Assembly (NCBI GenBank): GCA_022925895.1
Contig: JAKSYS010000117.1
Location: forward strand, 1 to 64,000
From: Fragilaria crotonensis
Lineage: Eukaryota; Bacillariophyta; Fragilariophyceae; Fragilariales; Fragilariaceae
Direction: 5' to 3'
DNA: 64,000 bases
Shown: positions 1-27,130 of the stretch, piece after piece
Layout: every line of letters starts with the position of its first letter
Numbering within the stretch: position 1 is the first letter of the stretch
Program-made: the position numbers and the translations under genes
Notes under the pieces: model-generated
What the model was told of the DNA's origin: nothing
What the model saw: only the letters and a program-made list of their open reading frames with translations
Database searches by the model: none

Positions 1-990
1 ACCGTTGGATCGATCAGGTGGAGCTCGGTATGAAGCGCGCCATGAAGATCGCCTCCAGAGGCGACGGCGATGACGGAACATCTGGCATTGCTCCTTGCTA
101 CTTCTCCTATGATGTTACGGCATGGAAGCTCAATGGTGGCAGCAACGCCGTCGGTCTTCCTTTGGTTAACGCCTTGTCCATGCGTGTTGGAACGTTTCCT
201 CTCTTCCTTGAGGACCTGTCCGATACCTGAAGACGGTCCAGGATGATCAGCATGCCGTGAAGGATATGTATGCTCGGGTGTTGCAATCTGGCCTTCGCGA
301 CGAGAAGCTGAAGATGTACTTCCTCTCTGCCAGTTTGAAGGGACAGAGCTATGACATGGGAAGAATGATGGCCTTCTCTCCAGGATGGCTCGAGAATCAG
401 TCTATCTGGACGCACATGTCTTTCAAGTATTACCTCCAACTCCTGAGAGGCAAGCTGTATGAGGAGTTCTTCGCTGAGATCAAGGGCGGAGGAATGATGA
501 CATTTATGGATCCTGACGTTTACGGTCGTTCCTTGATGGAGTGCTCCTCCTTCATGGCGTCGTCTGCATTCCCTGATCCTTCGATGCATGGACGAGGTTT
601 CCTTGCTCGTCTCAGTGGAAGTACTGCAGAGTTCATGTCGATGTGGAAGCTCATGTTCTTGGGACCTGAATTGTTCTTTTTGAATGATGTCGGTGAGGTT
701 GAGATGAAGTTTGTCGTTGCCATTCCTTCGTGGTTGTTTGAGGATGACGAAAACCCGGGAACTCGCGACGAAAATGGTGATTTGACCATCAACTTCAAGC
801 TCTTCGGGACGATTCCAGTGACCTACCACAACTCGGAGGAGGCGACCTGTTTGGAGTGAACGCCAAGGGATATTTGATCAAGATGAAGGATGGAAGTGCT
901 TTCCATGTCGACGGTCCATCCGTACCATCGGCAACAGCGCTTGCCATTCGCCGCGTCAAGGGCGTCCAGTCTATTGATGCGTACTTTTAA
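1..990 (+). pseudogene. 3' end of glucan-phosphorylase-like gene A (left copy, partial)
   Basis: The gene enters from beyond the window start in the frame LDRWIDQVELGMKRAM and would end at TAA 988-990. It holds the last third of the GH94/149/161-like catalytic domain, including the FLARLSGSTAEFMSMWK stretch. Two one-base losses break it. One near 211 (a G lost from a GGG run) is absent from the right copy of A. One near 840 is shared with the right copy and swaps the last 50 or so residues for a short tail ending at 859. The first is probably a sequence error; the second is either real or a systematic error. Confidence 0.85.
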
Positions 991-2811
991 ATAATATGAC
1001 ATGAATGAGATAAGGCATTGCAAGGGTGTGAAGCATGATTACATTTTCATTTTTAACATAATGTTTCATCTTACGTCTTACTATTTTGTAGCCTTCTATC
1101 TCGCGACACTCATGGCGTTGTAGTCCAGGTTTGTATTTTGCTCCAACTCCCGGAATGTTTGTGCAGTCCTTTCCGCCCGGTGGTATTTTTAAGTTTGTAA
1201 CTACGATGGAGCGATAATTCTAGGGCACAATTTCACTCATGGTATATTGTGAGTGGCCTATTTCACCAGCAATTGTGAGTAGCACCATCACAAGGCTCTT
1301 GTGGCTGGCCATCTGGACTTTTTTGAACACACAGAATCCACAAATGATACATGTCTCGATTCCTTCGGTCTCCTGTTTGTCAAGAAAGCTTTGTATGGAA
1401 GTAACTTGTAGCATTGAAATGCTGTTCAACCATCAATCTCTCCCAAGCTTGCAGTGTGTCTCACCTGGATTTAACAAATGTTGAGTCAACTCATGTGCTG
1501 GCGGGTTTGACAAAGCCAGTGCCAAGACGAGGCTGGTCATCCGTACTTTCCACAACTCAGGTTTCCCATGGGATATCCTGGTGTCGCAGTCTGCTTGGTG
1601 ATGTTCTTCCACCAATGACTTGTTTTAAATAATGCCACAAATTGACCAACAATTTCATCATGCTGCTGGCCACAATGTACCTAGGTCTCATCATTGTCAG
1701 CTATTTTCCAACAGCACCCAAGGCTTGACAACACTCCCTTCTCCAGAAGTACTCATTTCTTCAATTCGTGTCGTGGTAAGCATCTCAGCCTTCATGAAAA
1801 ACTTGTGTGATTTCACTCCTTCTTTGTGGTGTCAATCCTCGAGAAGCGGATCAGCCAGCCATCTTCTTGTAATCAATTCAAGATTGTTCCAGCCTTTTTG
1901 GTTCAGTGTCATCCTGAATTTGTTGTTGCTCCTTGGGCCTTACCTCCAGCAACAAGGTCCAGATCTCCATTGCTTCATCAGTACTTATGGTGTGGACGGT
2001 GCCCAATACCAGAAGCCCACTAGCCAGTAGTCGGACGACTCACCCATCTAGTAATCCCTTGTTAGATTCACCCCATTTCATGTGATAGTTCAGATTACTT
2101 TTCCCAATCCTTGTTGCTTGACAGGTCTTCACCTCAACCCTTCCTTCCTCATTGATCACCTATGCACAACTGTGGATTCCATTTGTTGTATTTGTTTGAT
2201 GTAATCTGGACTTCGTCCTAGTATGCCTATTCTTAATTTGAATCCTCAGTGAAGCTAGACATACTGAAGTACTCTCTTGGGTGTGCACGTCCCTAGTCCA
2301 TATCGGTACTACCGGACAGTCATCTCAGTACCGCTTGTGGTGCTACTGACATTGGGGCATACTAATCTCTTCATTACATGTTTGCAACCGATCTATTTCT
2401 AGGTCGATTCGTTCCATGTTGCTGGCCACGAGGGCGGACGAATTGGTTACGGGCAGATAGGGTCAAAGCGATAGCGGTACAAGTTAGCGATGCATCACGG
2501 ACGGGGACTAACTTTACTGACATTGAGGTTCAGTAATACTGTATTACTGTAATACTGTAATGCGCTGAGTTCGAAAACAAAACGGTACAAGTACTCAAAT
2601 ATTGCGAAATCTGTTGATTAAAATGATATAGGCGGGTAATAAGAGTGAAAAATATGTTTTAGATCAAACTCAACTACTACAGTACTACAGTAGCTGTTCG
2701 AATGGCCTATTCAGAAATTGATATTTTAGCCTAACGGAGATATCACCGGTTGGAGACGATAGAGAATCCACCAGACTTCAATCGATCGTCGAATGATGAT
2801 AGTGTGCCTAC
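991..2811. other. Spacer between A and B, no gene recognised
   Basis: No credible gene is seen on either strand. Short open frames at 1220-2030 show no recognisable family, although the patchy minus-strand coding look of 1430-2030 could be an old repeat remnant. From about 2280 the sequence is rich in GTAC and ACTGTA palindromic steps, for example near 2530-2560 and 2680-2695. Confidence 0.5.
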
Positions 2812-3203
2812 TCGACCCTGAAGACTCTGGCTCCGCCAAGAGGATCACATGATGACGCGGTCGTAACGATGATGTCCTCTTTCTTAGAATAGAAAGATAT
2901 TCGGAGAAGCTAATCGTTAGCAGCCCGTGTTACGGTTGCTATCGTGAATCCTTAGGATTTCGTCGCTATCTCTGCTCGCTTAACAGTTTTCATGCTGTGC
3001 TCATTTACTTCCACAACGCTGGACGCCAGTCAACTGCGGACATTGTTAACAATTCATCCACAAGGCATTGCTTGCTTGTCACCGACCGTGGTACAGATTC
3101 CCAGTCTCCTTACCAGACTACCTACGTGGAGGTCTCCATCGTCGCTGTTAGATTCACAGTGGGATCCCCTGTGCAGTGCATACAAAGCATCGTCTGTGCA
3201 GGA
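2812..3203 (+). pseudogene. Decayed copy of ribosomal protein uS2/RPSA (left copy)
   Basis: Read on the plus strand this stretch lines up end to end with the interior of the intact RPSA gene at 7973-8806 (minus strand). It covers the region from the [19 protein letters not shown] segment through [19 protein letters not shown] to the [12 protein letters not shown] loop. Recognisable conserved remnants are TDRGTDSQSPYQTTYVEV and, in DNA, the GTCGTAACGATG block. The frame is broken many times and neither the start nor the C-terminal third was found. Divergence from the parent is much greater than between the two 7.6 kb copies, so it predates the duplication. The parent gene is intronless here, so a retrocopy and a DNA duplicate cannot be told apart. 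Confidence 0.8.
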
Positions 3204-3699
3204 TCTAGGCCAAGATGAAAAGTGGATGCGAATTCAGTCTGACGTGATGGTTGGGAGTTACAATTGCTTGCTTTTTCTCTCAAGTCTGAAAGAGGCAATG
3301 TGCGAGGTGACTGGCTCGATTCAGGCATTCACATGAGCGGTCGCTGTTCGTTTAGCTGGTGAAATACCAGTCAAGATTCAAAAGCACTGAACTTTATGTA
3401 GAAGAGTTTGATTCATGTCCCAATTATATTTGTGAACGAACCTTGATAACATGACTCACGACTCACATCTAAAATGTCCACCTTATGGATGCAAACGAGA
3501 TTCGCCATTTTTTCAGTGCACAAGAGCCTGGCGTCCTTTTGCCTTGTCAAAGAATCGACGAGTACAATAATCGACACGTCGGAGAAAATGTTGGACTGCC
3601 ATTCCGAGTGTTCGGGTTGTTGTGAGTTTTCGGATGTTGTGAAACCCACATGAATTCAGAAAAACTGTTCCATAATGCGCATCATAATTTGCAACCATC

Positions 3700-6600
3700 A
3701 TGAACGTAAAGGACAGCAGTTACCAAAAGAATGGGGGGTACAACTCTGTTCCAAATGGCGAAGGTATGATATCTGCAATCGGCGGTTGCGTTTGTATCAA
3801 TACCTGTTACTGGTTATATCGTGTGATGCTGTCATGATTGCCACATACCTCACCTTAAGACATTTCTGGCATTGCAGGTGTTGAAATCTCAAACTCCAAG
3901 CCTCCTAGCAAATGGTTCATTGCGACTGTCATCACAGCGCTGATCTTTGCTGCCGGGTACGTTGGATTAACATTTATGCGAAAGGCCAAAAGCGGTAAAG
4001 GCATGGCCGTAAAATCCGGTGATGTCGACGTTTCGGATGACGGAGCGATAAAGCTCTTTGACAAGTTCAATCGATACGTTCTGGAGGATTTTGATGCCAA
4101 ACCAGCCTTTTCAAATTTCCTTCCTGGTGTCGCTGGATACTTTGGAAAACCAGTCTGGTCCTTCTACGTCAATCGCGGTCAGGGCATGGCGTCCTTCGGA
4201 ACAGAAAGCAAGGAGTATCCCATTTTGGAATTTAATGCTGCCAACAAAGCATATCAAGTCACACCGTACGTTGGATTTCGTTCGTTTGTGCGAGGAACTC
4301 GCAGCATGAGTTCCTTCGAGACGGAACCCTTCAGTCCTGCGAACACTCGCAACCTTGCCCTCGATGACAAGGATGCCTCCAAACCGAAGCGCATCATGTA
4401 TGTTGGTGCGAACGAATTTGAAGTGGAAGAATTCGACCAGGTGAACAATCTCGCAGTATCGGCGACGTACTTTGTCTTGCCCGAAGAAGATTTTGGTACG
4501 CTGGTTCGTCGAGCTACCTACACGAATACAGGAGACTCGGATCTCACGTTGAGTGTCTTGGATGGTCTCGCCAAAATGGAGCCATCGGGTGGTGCATTGG
4601 ACTGGTCACTCAAGCAGATGGGCCGAACTTTGGAGGGATGGATGGGTGTCTACCACGCGGACGATACTCTCACCATGCCATATTTCAAGATGTCCACCGA
4701 GCCTGGTGACTCGGACAGCGTCACGATCGAAGAGGCCGGCCACTATTGCTTGGCCTTTGTGGAGACAACAGACGATACTGCCGAGCTCCTGCCTATTGTG
4801 TTCGATACGACAAAGGTCTTTGGTCAATCCACGTCTCTTCAATCTCCTGCTGGACTTGCCGCCGCTTCGGTCGGGGAAATTCTTGCCAATCCTCAACATG
4901 GCGATGCCACTACCTCATCAGCCTTTGCGGCCATTGACAGGGTGACTCTTAAGCCAGGAGAAAACATCACTATCGCTACCTTCTATGGAAAGGCTGGGCA
5001 TATTACGGACGTGCCCAAGATTGGTTACATCATTACCGCCCCTGGTTATGTCCAGGCCAAGTTTGAGCGCGCTCGCCAACTCATTGATGAATTGACTGCC
5101 GGTGTCGAAACAAATACCGCCAATCCAATGTTCAATGGTGCTGTCCAACAGATATTCTTGGACAATGCCCTTCGAGGAGGTATGCCAACCGTAGTGGGAA
5201 AGGTCGAAGGTGATGCAACCTACGACGAGGACGAGGGTGTCAAGATCTTCCATGCCTTTTCTCGCATTCATGGTGATTTGGAGCGTGACTACAACGCATT
5301 TTCTATCAAACCATCATTCTTCTCTCAAGGTCCTGGAAACTACCGTGATGTTGCGCAGAATCGTCGTGATGATGTCACCTTCTTGCCGCGTATGGGTTCG
5401 TACGATGTCAAAATGTTCCTCTCGTACATACAAGCAGATGGGTATGAGCCTTTGATGGTTGAAGCTGTTGCTTACATGTTTGAGGATAGGGATGTTACCG
5501 AAGCATTAGCTGCGAAGCTGACAGCAGATCGTGGCAGTGCCAAAGGTGAGACAAATATACGTGATGTTTTGTTGTTGAGCAACCTGGTCCTTTCTCGCTT
5601 TGTTCTATATTTGCTCACACTTGCCCTCGCTCGCCGTAATAGCCCTTTCCAACGTCCTCATAGGAGGTCCGTTCCGCCCTGGACAGCTCTTCCAGCTCGT
5701 TGATGACTTGAACATCAATGTGACCGTTTCCAACGAAGTTTTCATCAATACCATTCTCGCCAAGTCCATCGATCGTCCCATGGCTGTTTACAGCTCTGGA
5801 TACTGGGCTGACCATTGGGACTACTACCTTGATCTAATTGAAGCGTACACTGCCATCTATCCTGATGGTGTCGAATCACTCATGTACGACACCAAGCTTC
5901 GGTACTTCTTCTCCACCGCGACGGTCAAGCCTCGAAGTGAGAAGTATGTGTTGACGTATGCTTTCGATGGCCTTTCCAAGCACGTTCTGCAGCTCGATTC
6001 GACAACGTTTGATCTGGAGAAGGTTGCCGAACAGAAGGCATTTGTTGACCAATCAACTGGCCTGCTTGGGATCGATGCGAATTGGCAACGTGTTGTTGGT
6101 GGCCAGGCATTTGAGTCGCCGCCTATCGTGAAGCTGTTCCTGCTTGGTGCAATCAAGTTCGCCATGCGTGATGCGTACGGTATGGGCGTTGAGTATGAAG
6201 GCGGCCGTCCTGGTTGGAACGATGCCATGAACGGTCTCCCAGGTATGGTCGGCTCTGGCATGCCCGAAACCTATGAGATGTACCTGATGTTGAAGTATGT
6301 TCGCAAGGTTGTCAAGACTTACAAGCGGGGTCTGATCGTACCGGACGAGCTACACGTCATGGTTTCCACTATCAACACGGCACTTGACGAGTTTAGTCGC
6401 ACTGGGTTTACGGACCCCGAAGAGCTCCCCTTGACGTCCCAGATGAACTTTTCCACTACTGGGATATCGTCTCTGCTGCCCGTGAATCGTACCGCAATGA
6501 TGTGCAGTACTACTTTTCCGGAAACACCACGGAGATTCCTGGCCACAGGTCGTTGCCATGCTAGACCGTTGGATCGATCAGGTGGAGCTCGGTATGAAGC

Positions 6601-7554
6601 GCGCCATGCAGATCGCTTCCAGAGGCGACGGCGACGACGGAACATCTGGCATTGCTCCTTGCTACTTCTCTTTTGATATTACGGCATGGAAGCTTAATAA
6701 GGGACACAACGCCGTGGGTCTTCCCTTGGTAAATGCCTTGTCCATGCGTGTTGGAACGTTTCCCTCTTCCTTGAGGGACCTGTCCGATACCTGAAGACAA
6801 TTCAGGATGATCAGCACGCCGTGAAGGATATGTATGCTCGGGTGTTGAAATCTGGCCTTCGCGACGAGAAGCTGAAGATGTACTTCCTCTCTGCCAGTTT
6901 GAAGGGACAGAGCTATGACATGGGAAGAATGATGGCCTTCTCTCCAGGATGGCTCGAGAATCAGTCTATCTGGACGCACATGTCTTTCAAGTATTACCTC
7001 CAACTCCTGAGAGGCAAGCTGTATGAGGAGTTCTTCGCTGAGATCAAGGGCGGAGGAATGATGACTTTATGGATCCTGATGTGTACGGTCGTTCGTTGAT
7101 GGAGTGTTCCTCCTTCATGGCGTCGTCTGCATTCCCTGATCCTTCGATGCATGGACGAGGTTTCCTTGCTCGTCTCAGTGGAAGTACCGCAGAGTTCATG
7201 TCGATGTGGAAGCTCATGTTCTTGGGACCTGAATTGTTCTTTTTGAATGATGTCGGTGAGGTTGAGATGAAGTTTGTTGTTGCCATTCCTTCGTGGTTGT
7301 TTGAGGATGACGAAAACCCGGGAACTCGCGACGACAACGGCGACTTGACCATCAACTTCAAGCTGTTCGGGACGATTCCAGTGACCTACCACAACTCGGA
7401 GGGAGGCGACCTGTTTGGAGTGAACGCCAAGGGATATTTGATCAAGATGAAGGATGGAAGTGCTGCCCAAGTCGACGGCCCATCTGTGCCATCGGCAACA
7501 GCGCTTGCCATTCGCCGCGTCAAGGGCATCCATTCTATTGATGCGTACTTTTAA
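3700..7554 (+). CDS. Membrane-anchored GH94/149/161-like glucan phosphorylase B (left copy, broken)
   Basis: Three exons: 3700-3763, 3878-5545 and 5643-7554, with GT-AG introns of 114 and 97 bases. The product matches the right copy at 60093-63955, where family and domains are described. Exon 3 of this copy carries four one-base losses near 6433, 6546, 6765 and 7066. Each is a missing C or T in a run or a short repeat, and each is intact in the right copy. They are spaced like consensus errors rather than selected decay, because the rest of the coding sequence is nearly identical. Taken literally the gene would stop soon after 6430, losing the C-terminal part of the catalytic domain. Confidence 0.85.
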
Positions 7555-7599
7555 GCAATTGAACTGGATGAGATAGATCATTAACAAATGTGAAGTATG

Positions 7600-7972
7600 A
7601 ATACAGTTTTGTGATTATATGAGACATTATACAATCGCTCTGTTGTACTCCCGTAGGCGCTGCGATTTGGGTGTACTTGCAAAGATACTTGGTTCAGTGA
7701 AAACTTAATGTGGGTACCAAGCAAATTATCCGCGATGAATCTGGTTACTTCATGTAGTCTATGCAGTGGCGTCCCCAATCGGCGATGTCAGTGCTTAATC
7801 TAATGAAACGTATCAGGTCGATGTCATGACTTCAGACTATCGAAATATGTGCCATCATCGGAGTCCAAATGTCATCGCCAAGAAAAAGACTAGATTATTC
7901 TGTACTACGTACATTGAGTCACCAAATTAGCTATTCGTCACTTAAGAGTTAACCCAAAATCAGCAGTACTAA
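7600..7972. other. Intergenic stretch between gene B and RPSA
   Basis: B and RPSA converge here and this stretch holds both 3' flanks. No gene or structured RNA was recognised. Confidence 0.5.
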
Positions 7973-8806
7973 TTACCAGTTGTCGGCTCCAGCAGCAGCG
8001 TCACCGCCTTCCCAAGACGCACCATAGGCATCAGGGGTGGCAGCGGCAGTGAATCCACCAGGAACCATTTCAGGAATATCGGTATCAGGTGGCAACTCAT
8101 CAAAGACGGGAGCAACCGCAGCGACAGGCTCATCGAGCTTGGCAGCTTGTTCTTCTTCATTCTTCTTGAGCTCCTCAACATCACGATGGAAGAAGAGATC
8201 AACCGGCACGTCCCAGTCCGTGGCACGGCTGACGGATCCACGGAGGCGAAGGACTTCACGGGCCAAGAGCCAGTAGATGAGACCGATACTGTACTTACCC
8301 TTGTTGTTGGCAGGGATAGCAATATCAACGAATTGAAGTGGAGAGTCGGAATCACAGAGAGCAATAACAGGGACATTCACGTAAGATGCCTCGCGAACAG
8401 CCTGGGAATCCGTACGAGGATCGGTGACAATCAAGAGACGTGGTTCTTTGAACTGCTTTGTGATTTGATTGGTAAAAGTACCTGGAGTGAAACGGCCGGC
8501 AATTGACTGGCATCCAGTGTAATGGGAGTACTTGAGGACAGCACGCATACCGTATGGACGAGCAGAGATAGCAATGACATCCTCGGGATTCTCAATAGCG
8601 ACAATGACACGGGCAGCGAGGATAAGCTTCTCCCAAGTCTTTCCAATGTTAAGAATGTGGACTCCATCGTTACGACGACGCCAGATGTATTCCTCCATGG
8701 AGGAGTCAGAGTTACGGGTTCCAGTGTGAACACCCGCTGACAACAACATTTGGATGTCCTCCTCCTTGGGTTGGAGGATGGCAGGGAGGGAAGCAAAGGC
8801 GGCCAT
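7973..8806 (-). CDS. RPSA: 40S ribosomal protein SA (uS2)
   Basis: Intronless gene for a cytosolic small-subunit protein of about 277 residues, the usual length. The uS2 signature runs throughout: a [19 protein letters not shown] start, the [25 protein letters not shown] helix region, [34 protein letters not shown] and [29 protein letters not shown]. The acidic, Ala/Pro-rich C-terminal tail is typical of eukaryotic SA proteins. The start is the ATG at 8806 (MAAFASLP); an in-frame GTG lies just upstream and is not needed. uS2 helps form the 40S head-body junction near the mRNA exit. A decayed copy lies at 2812-3203, and again at 59208-59601. Confidence 0.97.
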
Positions 8807-9865
8807 GGTCACTTAGTTATCAAATGTAGACTGTTCGGTCAATGAGATGAGGTGGGACGCGTAGAGTTCCGGTTTGCCACACAATCCTAACATTTGTTCA
8901 CACCCGAGTAAGCGGTAAAAAGGGAGTTGGTGAGGCGTACAGACGATTTGTGTTTGATTTGGGCGTTGAGTTGTCCGTCCTCCGTCCAGCTTTCCAGTGT
9001 TCGTGTATTCTCAGTATTGGCAGCATGGCCTAAATATGCATAAGAAACAAGTGCATGGCGCATACAAGTAGACTACCTGGTCCTACATACTACTTGTCTA
9101 CTCTACGGTAGTAGTGTTCACATCTGTATTGTGCTTTTCTTTACTGGTACTACAGTATCTGGCGTATCGCATGCAAGTCCTCTCCACACGATGACAAACG
9201 AGCACACGTTCCAGGCGTACACCATACTGACGCGTGTACCAGTACATTGTACATGTACCACCGTACATATTATTTGTGCTCTCCATGCTACTTTGAGATT
9301 TTCACTCCGCACACGGAAACATCCTCGGACACACAGAAATATCCTGTGTCACAATACATATCATACATGACACCGAATCCAAGAATCACAGCTCAAGTAG
9401 GATTGCATCGCAAACACAACTTTGTTGCAATCGATCATGAAGCCGTACAAGTACCACATAACATAGATGGCATACACGAATTCATCACCAAAACCAGGCT
9501 CACGACTCGTGTTGCTATATACTACCGGTAGTGATACTATACCGGTCAACACACATATGCAGCAATCGATGATGAAGCAGTGCCACATGATAAATTGATA
9601 GCACACACAAATTCGTCACCAACCCATCCTCTTGATATTTCAGTACTGGTAGTACCAGGTCAACTGCTAAGATATCGGTATGTCATAGAGTCGATTTTTG
9701 TAGAAAAGCTCGATCGGCTCGATTTGGGGACTTACACGGCCTCCCAGTTCCACTTAATCGGAGTTTATACCAATTCGCACATATGTATGATATGTATATG
9801 CATATATATGTATAACACCCTCGCAGCAATAAATGCTCCGCACAGACATGGAACATGGAGCTGAA
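8807..9865. other. Intergenic, RPSA promoter side
   Basis: About 1 kb without a gene. It contains the RPSA upstream region and a stretch (9060-9680) rich in GTAC steps and ACACAC/ATACAT-type simple sequence. No TATA box or named element could be assigned. Confidence 0.4.
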
Positions 9866-9869
9866 GCCA

Positions 9870-11151
9870 CTGATGGCTGGTGGCTGCCTGGGACATCCAG
9901 AAAACCTGGCTGTGGCGTAGAACCGACAGTAGCACCAAGGGCAGTGTATGCCGCTTCCTTAAGGAGCAATTTGTAATCCTTCGTGTAGGAAATGTGACCA
10001 GGTCTGTCACCGTCATGGCGAGATCCTCCGGTAGGAGAGATCCGGCTGATGACATGATTCGCCGAGCTGCGCATGCTTTGCCATGCCGAATCTCAGCAGA
10101 GTCGTCATCCTTGGATAAAACAACGGCGGTGATAGTTTCTGCATTAGTCTCCGGTCCCAGCAATGCTCATGCCGATCCCATCACTTTCGCAGCGGCCTCG
10201 CGAACGCCGTCATCTTCGTGCTTAAGCAATTCTGTGCTGGCGTCCAGAGCTGAAGGAATGCTGTCCGGAAGTTTCGCCTTAGACCCACCTTCCCTAAGAA
10301 CAGTTGACAAAGCTTCCAGAGTCGCAGTTTGGACGGCAGCAATTCCGCCCTCGTCGCCTGCCTTTCCGAGGGAACCCGAGGAGAGCTCTTTGAGCAGTGG
10401 GTCAACCCTTGTCGAAAGGGGCATCAACAGTGCAAGAGCTTTGATTGCTTCCACTCTGACTTGACGCGATTGATCTGACAATGCCTTAACGAAGGTTGTT
10501 TGGAATTGTGGAATTGTGGAACAGAGGCACGCAAGGCAGGGCCGCCCTCAACAAGAACCATCCCGAGAGTGCGCAGAATGGCAACCTTAACTTCCGCTGG
10601 ATTGCGATCTCCAACAATGCGAAGCAACGGGCCTGTGATCTTAATGATTAATTGACCGGCCAGGAACTTGCTCGACGTATATGAGATGAGCTCACCCAAT
10701 CCTGCGGCGGATCCGTAGAGGATACCACGCTGGTAGATTGGCAAAAGAGGCTCAAGACCTGAAATAAACTCAATTGTTAGCTATATATCGAGACCATCCA
10801 TTAAAAGCACATGGCGCACACGAGAAGAATCAGAAAGACTAAGCAGAATCCCCCAGGTATCGCGTCGGGATATGTTTACAAAAGAAATCATCATGTTCAA
10901 CGCATCGAAGCAATGCAACGTTGAAGACTCCGCTTACCTTTTGGTATGTTGAACCCGGGCATTAGGAATTCTCCATCACCAACGCCACCTTTCCTGCGCC
11001 GCGCGTCACTCACCATGCTACTAATGAGGTTTCGGATGAATTCCACATGCTTGACAAGCTCTTCTGCAGGGACGTGTGTCGAAAGTCTCTCTAGCGAGAG
11101 AGAGTAGTAGAGAGACAACATTACGTTAGGATGTATCGGTATTTTTACCAT
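9870..11151 (-). pseudogene. GCN1 C-terminal-half fragment, broken
   Basis: HEAT-repeat protein of the eIF2-alpha kinase activator GCN1 family. Exon 1 (10938-11151) encodes a segment ending DARRRKGGVGDGEFLMPGFN. A clean GT-AG intron (10759-10937) leads to LEPLLPIYQRGILYGSAAG, then ITGPLLRIVGDRNPAEVKVA and VRVEAIKALALLMPLSTRVD, all hallmarks of the GCN1 HEAT array. Full GCN1 is about 2,600 residues; only about 400 are represented, and the kinase-binding N-terminal two thirds are absent. An 8-base tandem duplication near 10507-10523 shifts the frame, a TGA lies in frame at 10167-10169, and another frame change near 10000 precedes KEAAYTALGATVG. This is therefore a decayed partial copy; a functional GCN1 is expected elsewhere in the genome. 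Confidence 0.75.
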
Positions 11152-11313
11152 GGTATGTGTATTTATATAGAATTCAAATCATTAGTTATGGACTGACATT
11201 AACAAGGTTGTATTGTAAGATTCACCCCTCGAGGTTTTATAGACATCATGTCATCAGTTTGTTGCATATAGATATACGAGCAATACTTAGTTTTAGAGCA
11301 AGGCGACCTTTAT

Positions 11314-11970
11314 TCATCTCCCTTGCAGATAAATCCGGACTATCATAATAGTCTCAAAAGGAATCTCTGGTAGGATCCAAAGTAATCGTTCAGGATGACC
11401 AATTGCAGCAATCAACACAATCAACAAGGAGATAACTTGATAACCCAATGACACAATTACGACTGCTGCTCTGGTACGTTGGACATACGCATCCCCAAAA
11501 CTTTCACCCTCGTTGATTACGGCACAATAGCGAATGAAAACGACGCTTGCCCCAACAGACAATATGATGGCCGCTAGGATTAGTTGCCAACCCGAAAGCG
11601 TCGCCACAATTGCCGCCATTTCTAGCAATTCGGCCACCCATGCGATGTTGGTACCCTTGTCGACAAAAAGAGTATCAACCCATTCTTTTGTATCCGTCCA
11701 TCGCATGAGAGAAGCTGCAATACTGTGCAAGGCAGAGCCAACGGCATGTGTCCGATTGATGGTTGTACCCACCTGCCAATTGGCCGCTCCGGACGTGATA
11801 TCGAAAAAGATGTCGATGCCTGCAAGGAACATCAAGGGCTTCTTATGTATGATTCCTCCAATTAAACAAAGAAGGTATGCTTGAACGGCGAACATCGATA
11901 CTGTGATAAGGTAACTTTCGGAGTATCCTTCCTTGAAAAAATCAACAAAGGTCAAGATAGTGGTCGACAT
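11314..11970 (-). CDS. Unknown multi-pass membrane protein
   Basis: Single-exon frame of 218 residues with ATG at 11970. Hydrophobic stretches suggest about five membrane helices: the VSMFAVQAYLLCLIGGI region, the LMFLAGIDIFF region, VAELLEMAAIVATLSGWQLI, LAAIILSVGASVVFIRYC and VVIVSLGYQVISLLIVLIAA. A loop between the second and third helices holds a WQVGTTINRTHAVGSALHS segment. I do not recognise the family and give no function. The frame is long for noncoding DNA and its hydrophobic pattern is regular, so it is probably real. The C-terminus at 11314 could be extended by splicing. Confidence 0.55.
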   Translation of the reverse strand: MSTTILTFVDFFKEGYSESYLITVSMFAVQAYLLCLIGGIIHKKPLMFLAGIDIFFDITSGAANWQVGTTINRTHAVGSALHSIAASLMRWTDTKEWVDTLFVDKGTNIAWVAELLEMAAIVATLSGWQLILAAIILSVGASVVFIRYCAVINEGESFGDAYVQRTRAAVVIVSLGYQVISLLIVLIAAIGHPERLLWILPEIPFETIMIVRIYLQGR

Positions 11971-12042
11971 ATGAACTGTCTACGATAACAATGTAATGCA
12001 CGTCAGTGGAGGAAGTAAGTATCGGTACCTTGTTCCCTGGTC

Positions 12043-12621
12043 CTAGCTCGCGCTAGAGCTACTTGTATTAGTTATGAATGTATTGAACTTGGAACGGCGA
12101 ATCGAGTGGGAACAGAATACATGTTTCACATTTTCCCACGTTTCACGTTTCAGGAATTTAGCCCTGTACTCGTAGTCAATTCCCGTACAGTACAAGTCCA
12201 ACGTGCGAGACGCGTCATCGGTGTGAAGTGTGAACGAGATTTCGGACCTTTCTTTACCTGGAACTGGTACTCCGAGTACTACTACTATGTCATATGGTAA
12301 TTGCATCTTCGATCGTCTGGTGATGGATCGTCGGGGGTCGGGGGTGGTGGTGGTTCCGGTAACAATATTTTGGTCAACATCTGCATATATATCATCTATC
12401 ATCAGTATTGTTTCATCATTACTACAACGACCATTGCTGTATCCAGCGATGGCTGTTGGATTATTTTGAATGTGAACATGATCGCTAGATGTAATGGAGT
12501 GCAGAAAATGCGTCGTAGTTGCCTTTTTACGCCATGGCGTTGTCGTCGTTGAATCTATATAAAAGCTCGCGCAGGATGATCCGAATTTGGTCATAGAAAT
12601 CGGCCTCGTCTTTCGCTGCAT
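12043..12621 (-). CDS. Hypothetical protein, weak
   Basis: Open frame of 192 codons starting at ATG 12621. It is rich in Ser, Thr and Asn with a TTTTPDPRRS stretch, and shows no signal peptide, membrane helix or family motif that I recognise. Part of it overlaps trinucleotide-biased DNA, which can keep a frame open by chance. It may be a lineage-specific gene or a chance frame. Confidence 0.25.
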   Translation of the reverse strand: MQRKTRPISMTKFGSSCASFYIDSTTTTPWRKKATTTHFLHSITSSDHVHIQNNPTAIAGYSNGRCSNDETILMIDDIYADVDQNIVTGTTTTPDPRRSITRRSKMQLPYDIVVVLGVPVPGKERSEISFTLHTDDASRTLDLYCTGIDYEYRAKFLKRETWENVKHVFCSHSIRRSKFNTFITNTSSSSAS

Positions 12622-12666
12622 CGCGATGGGTGAGTCAACAGCGAAGATCTATGAACGAACAGATGC

Positions 12667-13345
12667 ATGGCAGAAGTCGTCGGCTTGTCAGAAACAACGC
12701 TCGGAGGCACTGTCCCGTCTAGCGATACACTAAAATGTATTCTGCCGAGCGCTTGTCCTCATTCACGTAGGCAACAAGAAGTACCAGGAGCACTTCCTTT
12801 CTTCGATAACAACTTGGAACATCGCCGTCGTCTTGTCTACATTGCATCGGATGAGTAGGACCAAACTTTCTTTCAGCCATTCAGAGAGATCTTTGATGTT
12901 GTCATGTTGGATGATTTCAAACATTTACTGGTGGGGGTCAACACCAACCATTACGGCATGATTGATTCGTTGATTGCCTCGCGATCAAAAACCTTTTTTG
13001 GATGCTGGTTTTCGACTTTTCTGGATACATTAATCGACTACGCGGTTTCTGATTGATTCGTTGATTGCCTCGCGATCAAAAATCTTTTTTGGATGCTGGT
13101 TTTCGACTTTTCTGGATACATTAATCGACTACACGGTTTCCGAAATGGGATATCATTCGTCCTACAACTACGCCCTCGATGACCGCAAGTATCACATTCA
13201 GGAATTCTATCCCGTCAAGAAATCATTCTACGCTCGTGAATTCCCCACGGCTTGGAGACTGATTGATGAGGGTATTCAAGAACTCGCCGAGGCAGACGCA
13301 GCAATCAATGCAGAGGGTGCTGGAGCAAGCAAAGCAGCACTGTAG
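12667..13345 (+). pseudogene. Fucosyltransferase-like C-terminal remnant
   Basis: The frame reads LVYIASDE, an in-frame TAG at 12856-12858, then PFREIFDVVMLDDFKHLL, GMIDSLIASRSKTFFGCWFS and, after a frame change, GYINRLRG. This order (IASDE, LDDF, ASRS-FFG-WFSTF-GYINR-RGY) is that of the C-terminal nucleotide-sugar-binding half of O-fucosyltransferase-like proteins common in diatoms. A 91-base tandem duplication interrupts it. The tail YHSSYNYALDDRKYHIQEF to AGASKAAL then follows in an open frame to 13345. The N-terminal half is missing. It is a broken copy of a host gene; the exact family assignment is tentative. Confidence 0.55.
12959..13140 (+). repeat. 91-base tandem duplication
   Basis: Units 12959-13049 and 13050-13140 abut directly and differ at two bases (C/T in the A-rich run and G/A near the end of each unit). 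Ninety-one is not a multiple of three, so the duplication by itself shifts the frame of the fucosyltransferase-like remnant. The near identity of the units points to a recent event. Confidence 0.9.
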
Positions 13346-13589
13346 TGGAGCGCTCAGGCGCTACGGTCGCTATCTTTATTTATAGTTAATGAAATCATGT
13401 GTATGTTACTGCAGTACGATGGGTGTACTTTGCAATCATATCGACTACTTCAGGTCAGCAGGTGTCTGGATGATTCCGGATTTCCGGCTGTCCGAGTGTT
13501 CGAGATTTGAAGAAGGATTCCCTGCACCGCGTTGTTTATGACAGAGTTCCTCACTCACTTTGCCAAGAAAGTCACACACCGTAAGTCCC

Positions 13590-13997
13590 TCAGTCGTTGA
13601 TACTGTCAAACTCTTGATGGCATTTGAGTACCACTGTTAGATAATCGAAAAATCCAGATACTGCAACTCTTAGCATTTTCGCTTCTGTTGCCTGGAATGA
13701 TCTGTTTTGTCAAGTTTATTAGCAGTTGGTGGGTAGTGAGCACCAGCAAGCCTCCGCGGTTTGTTGTTGGAATTTGTTGCAAGGCGTCCACTGTCTATGC
13801 ATTCACTCATTCACTCACATTCGCAAGGTCCTCGGATCTGTTGACAATACGTCCATGGTCTTGACAACACGATTTCCCAGTTCCTGATCAACGATTAGCA
13901 CATTCTTGGTTCTGCTGGCACTGGCTGCGGTTGGAAAGGACACATTAATCTCACAAGCATATGGATAGCCCTTATTGTGTGCGGCGGCGGCAGTCAT
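13590..13997 (-). CDS. PCC1/LAGE3-like subunit of the KEOPS (EKC) complex
   Basis: Two exons: 13997-13819 and 13701-13590, split by a GT-AG intron (13702-13818). The phase closes exactly, with 179 and 112 bases giving 96 residues. Exon 1 encodes the N-terminal beta-strands (YPYACEINVSFPTAASA, VDQELG, RVVKTMDVLSTDPRTLR). Exon 2 encodes ATEAKMLRVAVSGFFDYL, TVVLKCHQEFD and the stop. Length, fold order and the RVAV-FFDYL helix match Pcc1, the small dimerisation subunit of the complex that makes the t6A base of ANN-decoding tRNAs. The start at 13997 is chosen because upstream in-frame sequence lacks conservation. The gene is easy to miss because neither exon is long. Confidence 0.8.
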
Positions 13998-14199
13998 GAT
14001 GGAATAATAATGATGTGTGGGAGTGTCACTGATGATGTAGTCTAAAGTACAGCACCAACGCCGAGCACAGATTATCTTGTGTTGATGTGCGCCATCATGT
14101 CGACATCTAAAAAAGGTCATGCTTGAAACTTCATCGTAGTACGACAGTACAAGGTACTGTAGTAACACTACACAGTACCAATGACAGCTGCACTACAGT

Positions 14200-14435
14200 A
14201 CCAGGGTAGAGGTGCAATATGCCGTATGCCATACGGCGGGTCCGATTAGGTTTCACCAATTTGACGTCTGAGCCCACGTCACAGTACTGATGTCTTCACG
14301 TTCAACGTCCTGACATACAGTACTACAGTAAGACAGTAACATACTGAGAGCATCCTGATTGGTACAGTACGCGCTGACGTCAAATTGGTGAAACCTAGCA
14401 ATCGGATCTGTCATATGTCATATGCCATGTGTACT
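14200..14435. repeat. MITE-like inverted-repeat element
   Basis: A perfect 22-base inverted repeat occupies 14247-14268 and 14377-14398, on the outer side of each of which similarity continues imperfectly for about 20 more bases (ATCCGATT, CATATG-type blocks). The 108-base loop is rich in CAGTAC and ACTGTA steps. There is no coding capacity. Size and structure fit a small non-autonomous inverted-repeat element. No target-site duplication could be fixed by eye. Confidence 0.65.
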
Positions 14436-14695
14436 GTAGTATGAAAAAGTAGTGTTGTACTGTAGAAGTCATTTTTTAACAGGACTGGTACTAGTACTAG
14501 TACTGTAAACTGTAATTTGTGGTAGCTATTTTTCTCGAAACAATGGAGATGCACGTCTGCTCGTGTAATTGGTGTCGACCATCAGCGCTTGTTTCGTGTC
14601 ATTTGTTTTATTTGTGTTGCTTGTGATTGTGTTATCAACAAGTACTATTACCCCTTGACGTTGTTGACAACTCTGGCTATCTGAACTAAACTGCA

Positions 14696-15358
14696 ATGTC
14701 ACTCTCCTGTGGTCCTGTCCCGAACGCGCTGAACTGCTACCGGAATTTCGGCGACGACGACGCCGACCTGAACGATGATGTTCCTACCAGTGCCAGTACA
14801 GGCAATGAATACGAACTAGTGGCACAAATGGATCTCATGTTCCAACCGGACCACCCGCCAGTCGAAATTGAAGGTATCATGACATTTCCTCTCAATCCCA
14901 ACGTCCCTCCGGCACCTATTGCAGGCTCTGTCGAACCATCCGAATGGTCCACCTTTGCAACTTGTGTCATGGAACAATCGAATCAGTTTCTACATCATCG
15001 ATCAATAGAACTAGCATTCCTCTACTTTGGTGTTTTGGTTCTTTTCTTGATCATCCTAACTGCCATCAAATACTACATGGACACATCTCTCGCGGAAGCC
15101 ATTGGGATTGGAACATGTCTCGTGGCAATCTTGGCCTTTGTCGTGGCCTTCAATCGACTACCCGTCTGGCACGACGCATCACTCGATGATGCCATTCTCA
15201 CTCTCACATCACGACAACCCCTCCGACACTATTACTTGACGTACATGAGATACAATCCCTCGGAGGGATTCATGGGAGTGACACGACGGATTCGAATTTA
15301 TCGAAAGAATGTGACGTACCAACAACCGAATCTTCTTGGAGTTCCTTCGACAAAGTAG
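14696..15358 (+). CDS. Unknown two-helix membrane protein
   Basis: Single-exon frame of 220 residues with ATG at 14696. The N-terminal half is acidic and soluble (GDDDADLNDD, then Pro-rich PLNPNVPPAPIAG). Two adjacent hydrophobic helices follow, at roughly residues 105-122 (LAFLYFGVLVLFLIILTA) and 133-152 (AIGIGTCLVAILAFVVAF). A basic C-terminal domain with RRIRIYRKNVTYQQP closes it. The family is not recognised. The hairpin layout suggests both ends face the same side of a membrane. The distinct soluble and membrane halves make a real gene likely. Confidence 0.6.
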   Translation: MSLSCGPVPNALNCYRNFGDDDADLNDDVPTSASTGNEYELVAQMDLMFQPDHPPVEIEGIMTFPLNPNVPPAPIAGSVEPSEWSTFATCVMEQSNQFLHHRSIELAFLYFGVLVLFLIILTAIKYYMDTSLAEAIGIGTCLVAILAFVVAFNRLPVWHDASLDDAILTLTSRQPLRHYYLTYMRYNPSEGFMGVTRRIRIYRKNVTYQQPNLLGVPSTK

Positions 15359-16112
15359 TTTTCTAGGAGAGCATTTGGGACGACTCGATGAAACCCTGTG
15401 TGTGCATGTGTGTACCTCTTTGTTGAGTGAGTGTTTGTGTGTCGTTGGATAACGTAGTTACTCTGGAGTACGTAGGAGTATACGTGTTTCACGCTTCACA
15501 TCGAGACGAACGCATGATTCCATTTGTCATGACCCGACTGGTGACGAGGTAGTACTAGTACTTAAAGCAATGATGGGATGGAGCATGTCATCGATGTCTA
15601 CAAACTGTTCGGCAAAAGGGACAAAGGTTTGGCGACACATCTAGAGTAGAGGCGCGTTCCACATTTATCACTTTCTAAATCCACATAACACAAATTGACG
15701 TTCCATGCTCCTTTATACTTGAATTAGTTTTCATTCGAGTCCGTGTTGACGATTGTGGTAAAGGGCAGTTTAGTCTTGCTCATGCGCTTGATGTAGGTGA
15801 GATTTCTGGGATGTGGAGATTGTACTTTCCCCTTCAATATCTCAAGGACGCCGCAAATGCCTACTAGTGCCTCTAGAGCCTAGAGTGCAGTTTCAACCAG
15901 GACCTCATGGCAATCTCGATGGAGTATGGAATGAACTTCCCCCTACTCCGTGAAATGTGCACGCGGACACGAGGTTTGCGTAACTGCCCATGGCATTTTT
16001 AATCATTATTATTGCGCTCCTATCGTACTACCCTCTTTTTTCTCCTCATGGCCAAGATTGCATGTGTGCGTGTGTGTAGGTGTGTGGACCACTTCCCATG
16101 TACAAACACATT
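15359..16112. other. Intergenic, no gene seen
   Basis: The stretch lies between two convergent genes. It holds their 3' flanks and a short TG/GT-rich simple-sequence run near 15400-15440 and 16060-16085. No gene recognised. Confidence 0.5.
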
Positions 16113-17419
16113 TTAAACTGGAAATCCAGGTGCTGATGCGTTTCTGGCCGCCGCTTCTCGGACTGGGGCAAAGTATGGATGTGTCGATGCTTCCTTGGCA
16201 GACAGTCTTTCTTGATGATCATACCTGAAGACAAAAGGGCAAGGGTAAGAGTGAGTACATGTACATACATGCGTGCGCGCATGAGTGGGTTTCAACAAGA
16301 CAAACATAAAAACAATGCAAATCATTGAACACACCTCAAGAGTTTGGACACATAGTCAAGGGCATCATCCGAAACGAGATGTTGATTCTCCGGAGTAATG
16401 AACTTTTGCCATGGTTTCTTGGAGTGGCGTCCCAAAATCCCATCAAAATGAGGGTCCAGCTCCAAATCGTACGTGTCAAGATAATGAAAGAGTTCTTCCG
16501 TTCCCAAAACCTTTGCAATTTTGACCAATTGATCATAATTGTCGTGTCCGTGGAAGAAAGGTTCCTTCCTGAAGATCATGCCGGCAAACATGCATCCCAA
16601 CGACCACATGTCGAGGGAGTAATCGTACTCTTGAAGGTCCACCAACAACTCTGGACCCTTGAAGTACCGACTTGCGACTCGGACATTGTATTCGCGTCCT
16701 GGGTGGTAGAATTCCGCAAGGCCCCAATCAATGAGCCGAAGCTGTCGTTTCTCGTGATCAATCATGACGTTGTGGGGCTTGACGTCACGATGCATCACGC
16801 CGTTGGAATGACAATAATCCAAGGCCTTGAGGAGCTCAAAGATGTAGTAACGAATGTCATAATCACTCAAGGTGGGATAGAGAATTTTGAAGTCTGTATT
16901 GTTGACGTGCTCGAAGATGAGAGAAGGAGTCTTGGACTGAGGGTCTCTGACAACATCCAAAAGTTGAATAATGTTTGTCCCACCGCACATATTTTGGAGA
17001 ATTTTGATTTCCCTCTTGATTTTCTTCTTCTTGACCGGTTTCAGAATCTTGATAACACACTTGGTGTTGTTGGCCACGTTGACTCCTTCAAACACCTATT
17101 CATGGATTGACATGGCATAAAGTCGATTAGCAAAAGACAGCACCGTAGACATCAATGGCAAAACGTCACATCTTCATCCAACCTCCAACAAACATACCTC
17201 ACTGTATTTACCACGACCAATCTTCCGAATCACCTCGTAGTCTTCTTGATCACCCCAATTGACAGTCAATGCTTCATAATCCCAGTAATCACGAGGACGA
17301 TGTACATTGACATCAGGGTAAACTCTGTTGACCGCGACAAGTGACAGTATGTTAGTATCCAGTACAGGTGGCAGGCTACACTGCTCCAGTGGTCTTCTCG
17401 TCATCTCCACGAGGAACAT
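16113..17419 (-). CDS. CK2A: Casein kinase 2 catalytic subunit alpha
   Basis: Three exons: 17419-17198, 17095-16335 and 16224-16113, with GT-AG introns between them and matching phases; the model is 364 residues. The kinase domain is nearly textbook CK2 alpha: [20 protein letters not shown], the glycine loop [11 protein letters not shown], Lys about residue 90 in CVIKILKP, the basic [12 protein letters not shown] cluster, [15 protein letters not shown] (catalytic Asp about 178), the DWG variant in [13 protein letters not shown] and [21 protein letters not shown]2 alpha is a constitutively active Ser/Thr kinase of the CK2 holoenzyme. The start is uncertain: the frame is open to ATG 17419, but an acceptor-like site precedes VYPDV and an upstream coding-like, Leu-rich exon near 17610-17700 is possible. 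Confidence 0.95.
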
Positions 17420-18256
17420 GTTTCCATCAAGAACGTGTATTCATCTTCGACTGACTGTGCATCCCCCTACCTTGCTCTGCTCATGGTACCAATATGGTAC
17501 TTGTGTGTTGGATGTCGTTGACGCCAATGAATGTAAATCCAGAGACAAAATGTGGTTGGGGATGTATACAGCAAAAACCTTACTCGATACGCACTCCTCC
17601 ACACGGACAGCACAAGAAACCTGACGACGAGGGAAGCAGAGACGCCAAGACCAAGAGCGCCGCCAATGGTGCACCGATTTTGCTGCCAGCTAAATCACTA
17701 ACAAGAAAAACGAACTGGTGACCAAAATAGGGTTAATATCCATTTGCAGTGTGCAGTTGCTACAGTACAGCTAGTAGAGTCTACTACTACTGTCCTACCG
17801 GTAGCAGGGCAATGAGTTGGTTCAAAGTTCAAAGTTCACGCTGCACGTTCGAGCTACCTGGTACCTGGTACTACAGTACTAGGGGACGATTTCACCTGCG
17901 CAATGGTACAGTAAAATCCTTTTGTCAGTCAGTCGTCGGTAGCTTTGGTGGAGTACAGGTACAGTAGGAGAGTGTCGAATGTCGAGTATCGGTACAACTC
18001 GGTAGTACACCAGTACACTCGTGGCGCGAGATTGCGACAAGATTCATGTAACGAAGCGCAACACAACCAACCTGCGCCTCACGCATCATCCCGACTGACC
18101 TGCTAGCTAACAGCAACAGCAACAGTAACACTGCACCTGAGCCACCTTCACAAACAATCTGCTTGCATTATCAGGAAGACGCTAGAGTACTCGCTATACA
18201 ATTTGGAGTACTACATCAGATTCCAATTCTTAATTTGTTGGAGACTCGAGATTTAG
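17420..18256. other. Divergent promoter region between CK2 alpha and the phosducin-like gene
   Basis: Holds the 5' flanks of both genes. An open Leu-rich stretch on the minus strand (about 17610-17700) ends in a donor-like GTAAGG and could be an alternative first exon of CK2 alpha, but it has no ATG. The 17840-18010 part is dense in GGTAC/GTACC palindromes. Confidence 0.4.
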
Positions 18257-19060
18257 ATGAGCATGGAAGGTCAAGGCGTTATCAATTACAACGTGAGCCG
18301 TCCATCGTTTGCCATTTCGACCGAAACGACCGAATTTGACGATGAATTGATACGACGAGGCATTATTTCCTTTGAGGAGTCCATGATGCGCAAGGGTGCA
18401 TCACAGCAGGAAGCCGTGCGACTCAAGGAAATGAAGGAAGGGAGGACTACAAGTCTGAATTGTCCTGACACGGAAGAGACACAAACGGAGGATGAGTTTT
18501 TGGAGCGGTATCGTCAGAAACGATTACAAGAATTGAAAGAAGATGCTAGTGGTGGAGGCAGCAATCCATACGGAAAATTCGGCCAGGTCATGCTTATTTC
18601 ACGGCAGGACTGGGCACGAGAAGTGAACGAGGCCAGTCAAAGTGCATGGGTTGTGATCTCTTTGACATCATCAGATGTGGAACGGACTGGATGTATGGAA
18701 AAAGCTGTGTCTGCACTGTCGAGTAAATTTGTGGATGTCAAGTTTGTTGCCATTCCCCATCAACAAGCCATGGCCAATTGGCCGGAAGACCACCTTCCAA
18801 CGGTGTTTCTGTATCGACATGGAAAGTTACAACATCAACTTGTTTCCCTTCCCACCTTTATATCTGAGGAGCAATTGGAATGGAAACTTGCGCAGTTGGG
18901 CGTTTTGGAAACGGACTTGGAGGAAGAGCCGAGTGATCAAAATCGTAACAACAGGTTTAAAACTGGCTCGTATCGAGGGACTGTCTTTGGGGGGACGGCG
19001 TCCGAGTTGAAGACGAGGGAGTCGGTTGATGCAACGAATGCGTACGATGATGTGGATTGA
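18257..19060 (+). CDS. Phosducin-like protein (PLP2/PDCL3 type)
   Basis: Single-exon gene of 267 residues with ATG at 18257. The N-terminal third is a charged helical region (FDDELIRRGIISFEE, DEFLERYRQKRLQELKE). A thioredoxin-fold domain follows, starting at GKFGQVMLISRQDWAREVNE, with WVVISLTS in the strand, a non-CxxC active-site equivalent (TGCMEKA), DVKFVAIPHQQ and the cis-Pro-like LPTVFLYRHGK. The C-terminus is acidic. This order matches the PLP2/PDCL3 class of phosducin-like proteins, cochaperones of the CCT chaperonin for actin and tubulin folding. A redox role is unlikely because the CxxC is missing. Confidence 0.9.
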   Translation: MSMEGQGVINYNVSRPSFAISTETTEFDDELIRRGIISFEESMMRKGASQQEAVRLKEMKEGRTTSLNCPDTEETQTEDEFLERYRQKRLQELKEDASGGGSNPYGKFGQVMLISRQDWAREVNEASQSAWVVISLTSSDVERTGCMEKAVSALSSKFVDVKFVAIPHQQAMANWPEDHLPTVFLYRHGKLQHQLVSLPTFISEEQLEWKLAQLGVLETDLEEEPSDQNRNNRFKTGSYRGTVFGGTASELKTRESVDATNAYDDVD

Positions 19061-19490
19061 TATCGACTGCATATCCCATACTCCCGGATGTGCACCATTG
19101 CTTCGCGCGCTTCACGCAAGAACGAGCACGAAATAATTCTCGAGCGATCCAACTGTTGTAGTTCCAATCTTGGGAACACAGCGACCGTCCATCGTTCATA
19201 CACTTTGAAAATGCACCTTGTGCGAACCAATATAAACCTAGACACGAGTGCTTGGAGCACAAGTAAAAATGAGCATCCTTCAGTACGCCTATAGAAAAGA
19301 TTAATAGCACCTAGATTCGAGCTTACAGATCAGAAAAGTCATCAAGAGAGTTACTTGCAAACACCGTGTATTACACAACAATCCAACTACTTCCAACAAA
19401 CCATGCTTCCAGAGCTTGAATCCGGATCACACACACATGACGCATAATGTGTGATGCACCGTAGGATGAGGAACCCTTACTCCAGCATGC
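19061..19490. other. Intergenic, no gene seen
   Basis: 3' flanks of two convergent genes; nothing recognisable. Confidence 0.4.
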
Positions 19491-19910
19491 TCATGCCACA
19501 ACTTGATCGCCCTTGCCTGCACATGCCTTCATTTTCTCCGAGACAACTGTGCATCCCTGTACAATCCCATCGCGACTCTTTTGTAGCACTTGATGTTTCG
19601 ATTCGTATTCTTGAATTTGTTGCTTCGTCTGAACAATGGATGAACCAGCCTGGCGTGTGACTTTTCCAGGTGGAGTATCGGTCATGGCAACACACGCCGC
19701 ACCGACGGCAACACCAAGGCCCACCAATGGACCCAACAAGAGACTACCAACAAGACCTGTCAGGACCGCCACGGAACCCAATTCGGCAAGGGAGGGGCCA
19801 TCCTCGTCACTGTTGGTATTGGTGGCAGTGGTGTTCTTGTCATTGTTGTTGTTGTTATCATCCCCTACTGCTCCATTACGATTCGTTACGCGGATTTTGT
19901 AAAGCTTCAT
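19491..19910 (-). CDS. Small glycine-zipper membrane protein, paralog 1
   Basis: A 139-residue frame with ATG at 19910. Layout: a short basic N-terminus (MKLYKIRVTNRNG), an Asn/Asp-rich linker, a long small-residue hydrophobic segment (GSVAVLTGLVGSLLLGPLVG, then LGVAVGAACVAMT), a GKVTRQAGSSIVQTK stretch, and an amphipathic tail with KHQVLQKSRDGIVQGC. The same order recurs in the gene at 21639-22148, with shared GPLVGLGVAVG/GPVIAIAAGIGVAVA and GKV-ASG-KHQV-GC features. The Gly/Ala/Val pattern suggests a membrane-inserting hairpin. I do not know the function. Confidence 0.65.
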   Translation of the reverse strand: MKLYKIRVTNRNGAVGDDNNNNNDKNTTATNTNSDEDGPSLAELGSVAVLTGLVGSLLLGPLVGLGVAVGAACVAMTDTPPGKVTRQAGSSIVQTKQQIQEYESKHQVLQKSRDGIVQGCTVVSEKMKACAGKGDQVVA

Positions 19911-20827
19911 GGTTGGTGTTTACATCAAACACACACTGGGCCCAAAGTTTCGTCAATGAATGGATGATGAATGGAGGGTGTGTATGGTTGTACAAAAGCA
20001 AAACCGCGACGACTCGATTGTAGTTTTGTGGGGAACCACATGTCCATCAGACGACTCAACGGCTTGACATTGGTTGCCGCCATTTGATTTTTGGCATGTC
20101 CAGCAACACCGTCTACACGACTTAATAATGTGACCACGGCACCCTTGCAGCCAGAGCAAGGGAATCTCGACTGGATCTGGAGCGTGCGGGGCCACACCTC
20201 CCGTCATTCGCATGTACCGTACCTAGCGTACTGGCACACGTCTAAACTCGAATATTTCAGTGGATTCGTATCATTTTTCGATTCCGGGAGTGGCCTGCCG
20301 CCAGCAATGTATATGATATATACATCATAATGATATGCTACATGCACATGTATGAAGATGTACAGTGATGGATGCCTACCAGAATTTTATTCTCTGGCAG
20401 TACATACCCGGACTAAAAAAAAAACCCCATATCTATTTTACGTGTTGCTGCGATGCTCATGATTATCAGCATTCAACTCACACGGTACGACACTCTCCTT
20501 TAGTGGATAGCGTCACACAGGTAGGCACCTGGATGCCTTACTTACATGCCGGTCCAGGACGAATTCTGTGCTGGTAGTTTAACCTGCGCCGAAATATGTA
20601 CGGATAGATCGCACGCCTCGTGTCGAATTTCGTTTTGCGCGCCGAATACTGGCTTGAAATATCGGACCCGGACTAAGTTTACGATACTGTACTACCTGGT
20701 ACCTGGTACTGGAGTAGGATCACAGCACTCGTTGTCACACGTCACTTCCCTTCATCAAACATGACAACACGACAGTTCGATCTTGTCATGAAGATCTTAA
20801 AGGATATTGCCGATAGTGCGTTTGACC
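19911..20827. other. Intergenic, no gene seen
   Basis: Upstream region of the minus-strand glycine-zipper gene and of the plus-strand cupin gene. Contains an A-run (20416-20425), an ATGTATATGATATATACAT-type palindrome near 20307-20328 and GGTACCTGGTACTGG near 20698-20712. No gene recognised. Confidence 0.4.
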
Positions 20828-21386: not shown

Positions 21387-21638
21387 AATGTATGGTCTTG
21401 AAAGTATACTCCACACTTAATGAAAGGCGGGCGAAACGTTTGTCGCAAATCATGAATATGCACATCCTCGCTGACTACACGCTCATTCACATACTCCCAA
21501 ATAAAGCTATACATTAGTGTTTTATAGTGCATGCCCATTGGTATAATCGGCACCCCACCCATTCCAAATAATGTCGAACTCACTCGAAGCTCAAGCCTCG
21601 GTACTAGTACCTGGTATACTCCAGAACTGGTACAACGA
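21387..21638. other. Short intergenic stretch
   Basis: Convergent 3' flanks of the cupin and glycine-zipper genes; nothing recognisable. Confidence 0.4.
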
Positions 21639-24392: not shown

Positions 24393-24608
24393 AATTATTT
24401 CGTAGTTTGACACTGCATCTGAGTCGACTGTCGGCGGTAGTTTTCGTTTGCCCAGCAACAACGTCAGAAGCGTCCTTCAACAAGAGACGTCATGGACATC
24501 CCACTGCAGCTTTTCCGCAGATAGTATCAGGAAGGCGCAGACATCGGAGTCGAACACAATCTGTAAACAATAGTTACCAATTAAATGTATATAAATACTG
24601 GACTCATA

Positions 24609-27030: not shown

Positions 27031-27130
27031 TGTCTCAATCTTAATTCCTGTCACCTCAAACCGCAGCGCCGAGACGGGCGGTTGCGAGTCAAACAACCAG
27101 CGAACTACGACAGTGTATATAGGACATCCT

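Follow-up and report, generated by a model that had tools for sequence, protein, structure and literature searches.

Why does a stretch of diatom DNA begin and end with the same 7.6 kb? The window (the whole stretch analyzed here, 64,000 nucleotides from Fragilaria crotonensis) puts this question to anyone who wishes to annotate it: read at face value, the repeat would supply the algal genome with one more GH161 gene, a further partial one, and seeming pseudogenes. We take an assembly artefact to be its most likely cause and, failing that, a very recent, ordinary duplication; the repeat is of low biological interest.

How Much Is Repeated, and How Do the Copies Differ?

The window falls into three parts:

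1..7599, + strand: start copy of the repeat, error-rich, cut by the window start
7600..56382, no strand: sequence between the copies, with nuclear genes and no N
56383..64000, + strand: end copy of the repeat, cleaner, cut by the window end

In a BLAST self-comparison, positions 1-7599 and 56383-64000 (+) align over 7631 columns with 99.4% identity, 1 mismatch, and 29 gap openings, and a match of 7.6 kb can be taken to rule out a chance origin. The duplicated content comprises the tail of a gene that we call A, the spacer between it and gene B, gene B with its introns, and a decayed ribosomal-protein fragment. An earlier note on this DNA had reported an identical 7.6 kb at both window ends, on the same strand and with introns, spacer, and pseudogene included, which the self-comparison confirms. 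The note had also described the differences as almost all indels of 1-9 bases, with one clear substitution; a global alignment of the copies returned just that, its 29 differences being 28 indels and 1 substitution (G at 4467, A at 60864). The repeat is, as the note said, cut by both window ends, and no repeat boundary is visible within the window, which has 0 N characters along its whole length.

The indels are small: 22 of the 28 involve one base and the other six 2-9 bases, and in the 23 single-letter indels the run in the longer allele is 1-6 bases long. By the same alignment the start copy carries 23 deletions and 5 insertions, and it measures 7599 bases against 7618 for the end copy. Because the start copy is shorter, the offset between the copies climbs from 56,382 to 56,401.

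Which Genes Does the Repeat Carry?

The genes that lie in or across the repeat, together with the relative of the ribosomal-protein fragment, are:

1..990, + strand: tail of gene A (GH161-like), part of the last exon, truncated by the window start
2802..3044, + strand: decayed ribosomal-protein fragment, start copy, related to the S2-family gene at 7976-8812 (-)
3700..7554, + strand: gene B (GH161-like), start copy, with a donor at 5546 and exon 3 from 5643
7976-8812, - strand: S2-family ribosomal protein gene, by Pfam
53673..57373, + strand: gene A in full, colinear with B on either side of 56383
59197..59441, + strand: decayed ribosomal-protein fragment, end copy, related to the same S2-family gene
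60373..63955, + strand: gene B, end copy, exons 2 and 3, frame open, first exon upstream

The ribosomal fragment has ~75% identity to the S2-family gene and lies in the opposite orientation. The intron of end-copy B at 61943-62039 is 97 bases long. Upstream of 60373 in that copy, gene B appears, by eye, to have a short first exon and a first intron; exon 1 of start-copy B, from 3700, was likewise placed by eye.

Each half of B resembles solved GH161 phosphorylases, with E values of 8.8e-76 for the first and 1.1e-96 for the second. Against 9qqk, the first open reading frame aligned at query 30-505 and the second at 24-573, and alignment to the solved phosphorylases thus spans most of the protein; neither half has a Pfam match at 0.01. 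We read A and B as putative tandem genes for GH161-like beta-1,3-glucan phosphorylases, with the activity predicted, and they may form a chrysolaminarin-breakdown gene pair. GH161 genes are reported from bacteria and heterokont algae, and all the heterokont ones examined in those reports have introns (PMC6484121, PMC7965971). Judged by these genes and their introns, the likely source of the DNA would be a photosynthetic heterokont, perhaps a diatom. The genes described here resemble the heterokont ones in their homology to solved phosphorylases and in their introns; they differ in forming a tandem pair (dS 0.25) and in that one or both of them are broken in places by one-base losses, which are probable sequence errors.

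Inside the repeat lies an older one. The self-comparison aligns 53700-57430 with both 60268-63976 and 3871-7610 at ~91% identity, and this repeat is best read as the tandem paralogues A (53673-57373) and B (end copy, 60256-63955), which are spaced ~6.57 kb apart. Over 1159 codons the pair gives dS 0.248, dN 0.035, and dN/dS 0.14, a history that suggests purifying selection. Read in B's frame, gene A has zero stops, with one-base gaps relative to B near 56025 and 57220. The latter gap is common to both repeat copies: the tail of A at the window start lacks the corresponding base near 841. The two gaps are either residual errors or very young real frameshifts, as in a young pseudogene; because the one near 56025 lies outside the repeat, errors or real frameshifts extend beyond the start copy. 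Two neighboring 100-base windows at 56700-56899 show 99-100% identity between A and B, compared with 85-98% in most other exon windows, and recent gene conversion is a possible cause of this near-identity.

Which Copy Carries the Probable Errors?

The polarity of the indels points to the start copy. Losses there make up 23 of the 28 indels (p=0.0009), and the non-coding indels alone retain the bias, with 18 losses against 5 gains (p=0.011). Coding sequence contains five indels, each of which removes one base from the start copy: one, at 212, shifts the frame of gene A's tail, and four lie in gene B, at 6427, 6546, 6762, and 7066. They break frames that stay open in the end copy, and none breaks the end copy alone. 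When spliced, start-copy B has 11 stops, the first in codon 868 out of 1162 when the count starts at 3976. A codon-usage scan assigns one frame per exon to end-copy B and four frame changes, in the last exon, to start-copy B; end-copy B was itself among the training genes, and its open frame is better shown by the open reading frames and the intron.

The scarcity of substitutions bears on the same question. For the diatom Phaeodactylum, published rates per site per generation are 4.77e-10 for substitutions and 1.58e-11 for indels, or ~30 substitutions per indel (PMC6604790), and Dictyostelium, with two indels per substitution, is called unusually indel-rich (PMC7466956). If the Dictyostelium ratio is assumed, the probability of at most 1 substitution beside 28 indels is 1.2e-5; the 28:1 ratio of indels to substitutions fits neither mutation spectrum.

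These figures weigh on two explanations that would treat the differences as true variation. The first is an old, real duplication whose 28 indels are genuine mutations from a slippage-dominated process, such as faulty mismatch repair. Most of the indels do alter the length of a run or of a short tandem unit, but the runs concerned are short (1-6 in the longer allele), the measured spectra as reported are far from 28:1 (PMC6604790, PMC7466956), and frame-breaking losses in B are out of keeping with the purifying selection seen between A and B (dN/dS 0.14). We regard this origin as scarcely credible. The second is a heterotype false duplication, in which each end represents one allele of a diploid. 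In three vertebrates, false duplications are reported to have arisen more often in this way (PMC9516828), and one clean substitution does polarize to the end copy. Alleles that had gathered 28 indels should nevertheless show many substitutions and not 1, and the indels are largely confined to one side, which makes this origin very improbable.

Residual errors of long-read sequencing, by comparison, are reported to be mostly homopolymer indels, and to escape short-read polishing in one copy of a repeat because the reads align preferentially to the error-free copy (PMC8812927). Given the polarity of the losses, the broken frames, and the missing substitutions, the differences between the copies are very likely sequencing or consensus errors, mainly in the start copy. 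The earlier note had inferred consensus error on one copy, and this finds support in the 23:5 losses, the five of five coding indels that break frames, and the mutation spectra. It had offered three origins for the repeat (a false duplication, a circle, or a very recent duplication), a list that we retain, each member with its own weight as discussed below.

Some differences point the other way. The substitution at 4467/60864 does not stem from an error in the start copy, which at 4467 has the same base as paralogue A; it is the end copy that has the changed one. The ribosomal fragment contains two indels, of which that at 2840 suggests an error in the start copy and that at 2816 one in the end copy; in net alignment score the end copy is favored, 212 versus 206.

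Are the Indels Spread Evenly?

They are not. Coding sequence has 5 indels in 4569 bp and the remainder 23 in 3030 bp (Fisher p=6e-6), a density ~7 times higher outside coding sequence, and one stretch of 2583 bases, 3844-6427, is free of indels (p=0.0003 under uniformity). Runs of at least 4 bases are ~2 times as dense in the non-coding part and runs of at least 5 bases ~7 times. Run-length composition accounts for only part of the contrast, because many of the affected runs are shorter than 4-5 bases. Counted per kilobase from position 1, the indels number 1, 7, 10, 6, 0, 0, 3, and 1. The count does not rise steadily toward position 1, and so does not fit neatly with error at a contig start.

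Could the Window Come From a Circle or a Tandem Array?

Position 56383 falls within gene A's last exon, and A aligns with B unbroken on both sides of it. Because A stays in register with B, 56383 is no breakpoint, just the place where the window starts in the other copy. Nor is a join visible at 7599, because the 3' flank of B is similar to that of A up to 7610, and the right edge of the end copy is the window end. As written, the window amounts to 1.13 turns of a sequence with a period of 56.4 kb. Should a linear chromosome contain the stretch just once, there must be a wrong join to the right of 7599, since the sequence at 56382/56383 runs through an exon of A; if both joins are correct, the unit is tandem or circular.

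Consider first a circular molecule of ~56.4 kb, whether an extrachromosomal circle or some other circular replicon, with the contig read past its start. The ends match in order and orientation, no internal junction contradicts such a circle, and untrimmed overlapping ends are described as usual for circular contigs, for example, that of the Cafeteria mitochondrion (PMC6972860). Our window shares with that example the same sequence at both ends in the same orientation; it differs in carrying nuclear genes and in that the window ends may not be contig ends.

The gene content argues against a circle. The window is apparently eukaryotic nuclear DNA: Pfam scans, which covered 30 of the 66 listed open reading frames, matched an S2-family ribosomal protein, a phosducin-like protein, aldehyde dehydrogenase (both parts), TPR, histone H2A, and a piggyBac-type transposase. 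The window yielded no tRNA genes, no Rfam matches at gathering thresholds, and no telomere-like repeats of at least 2 units of four motifs. It is the ribosomal protein, histone, and aldehyde dehydrogenase, together with the intron-bearing genes, that speak against a circular replicon; in addition, no replication or plasmid function was recognized among the same 30 of 66 open reading frames, and positions 1-20000 had no near match among plasmids. Nuclear genes and absent plasmid functions are still compatible with an excised chromosomal circle. In a literature search on circular DNA in diatoms, the best 8 of 41 matches included no diatom circles. On balance we consider a circle unlikely. We are equally doubtful of the claim that a 56.4 kb chromosomal segment bearing the GH161 pair and the ribosomal-protein and histone genes is circular or tandemly amplified and present in extra copies. 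Were it true, the unit would stand as a rare and well-sized case of amplified nuclear genes in an alga of this kind.

A real and very recent tandem or segmental duplication deserves more weight. It would involve at least 7.6 kb, or else the whole 56.4 kb unit, with the start copy simply having the worse consensus. A 64 kb piece taken anywhere from an array of 56.4 kb units would have exactly the appearance of this window, in which no boundary is visible; an older tandem duplication that is real, A and B, is already present at the locus; and the substitution at 4467/60864 may be genuine, with the end copy having the changed base. Polishing artefacts, moreover, are reported to strike real repeats too (PMC8812927), and the persistence of errors in one copy is equally expected if the duplication is real, which counts against a false one. 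Two equally real copies, on the other hand, should be about equally error-prone, and the losses stand at 23:5. We would not bet on a real duplication, yet it is a serious contender.

What Is the Most Probable Origin?

The best single reading is a false duplication at the contig start, to which we give a probability of roughly 0.52. One chromosomal stretch of the nuclear genome, running from the end of gene A through the spacer and gene B, would appear twice in the assembly, with a start copy that is a poorly corrected long-read consensus of the sequence in the end copy, probably left at the start of a contig. Once two copies had been assembled, short reads would go to the cleaner one and errors would persist in the other. 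On this reading, position 1 would be at or close to the start of a contig, and the A tail, spacer, and B would be present once in the genome.

How does the repeat compare with known false duplications? Those of the homotype class are described as built from read errors and 1-50 kb long; their hallmark is very low depth on the false copy, heterozygous k-mers should be absent, and a gap between the pair is typical but not required (PMC9516828). The one substitution between our copies could be a heterozygous site. The repeat resembles them in being under-collapsed, in a length within 1-50 kb, and in apparent read errors without allelic divergence (PMC9516828); here the differences are of the error kind and not allelic, with the error origin inferred from the sequence. 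It differs in having no N gap between the copies (PMC9516828), and in that the copies lie 56 kb apart and not next to each other. By sequence alone, the repeat looks like a homotype false duplication. To be counted against a false duplication are the denser non-coding indels, the substitution at 4467/60864, the indel at 2816, the gap near 56025, and the lack of an N gap.

What does this mean in practice? If the start copy is treated as the probable product of consensus error, storage-glucan metabolism will not be wrongly said to have gained or lost genes. We recommend that annotators count no extra GH161 genes or pseudogenes here without consulting the reads.

What Else Lies Between the Copies?

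The open reading frame at 46374-48014 (-) encodes a piggyBac-type transposase (DDE_Tnp_1_7, E 3.9e-51). A simple search within 45401-49000 for terminal inverted repeats beside TTAA, with at least 10 of 13 positions matching, found none, and because of this there is no sign that the piggyBac-type element made the repeat.

At 34310-40686 (+) there is a G+C-rich block (55-57%) with overlapping long open reading frames in changing frames, none of which has a Pfam match; by eye only, it looks like a decayed mobile element. Its frame changes were considered as a measure of the error background in the unique part of the window and then dropped: because no family was matched, they are indistinguishable from introns or decay. 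Finally, a 91-base unit occurs twice in tandem at 12959-13140, the two units being 98% identical.
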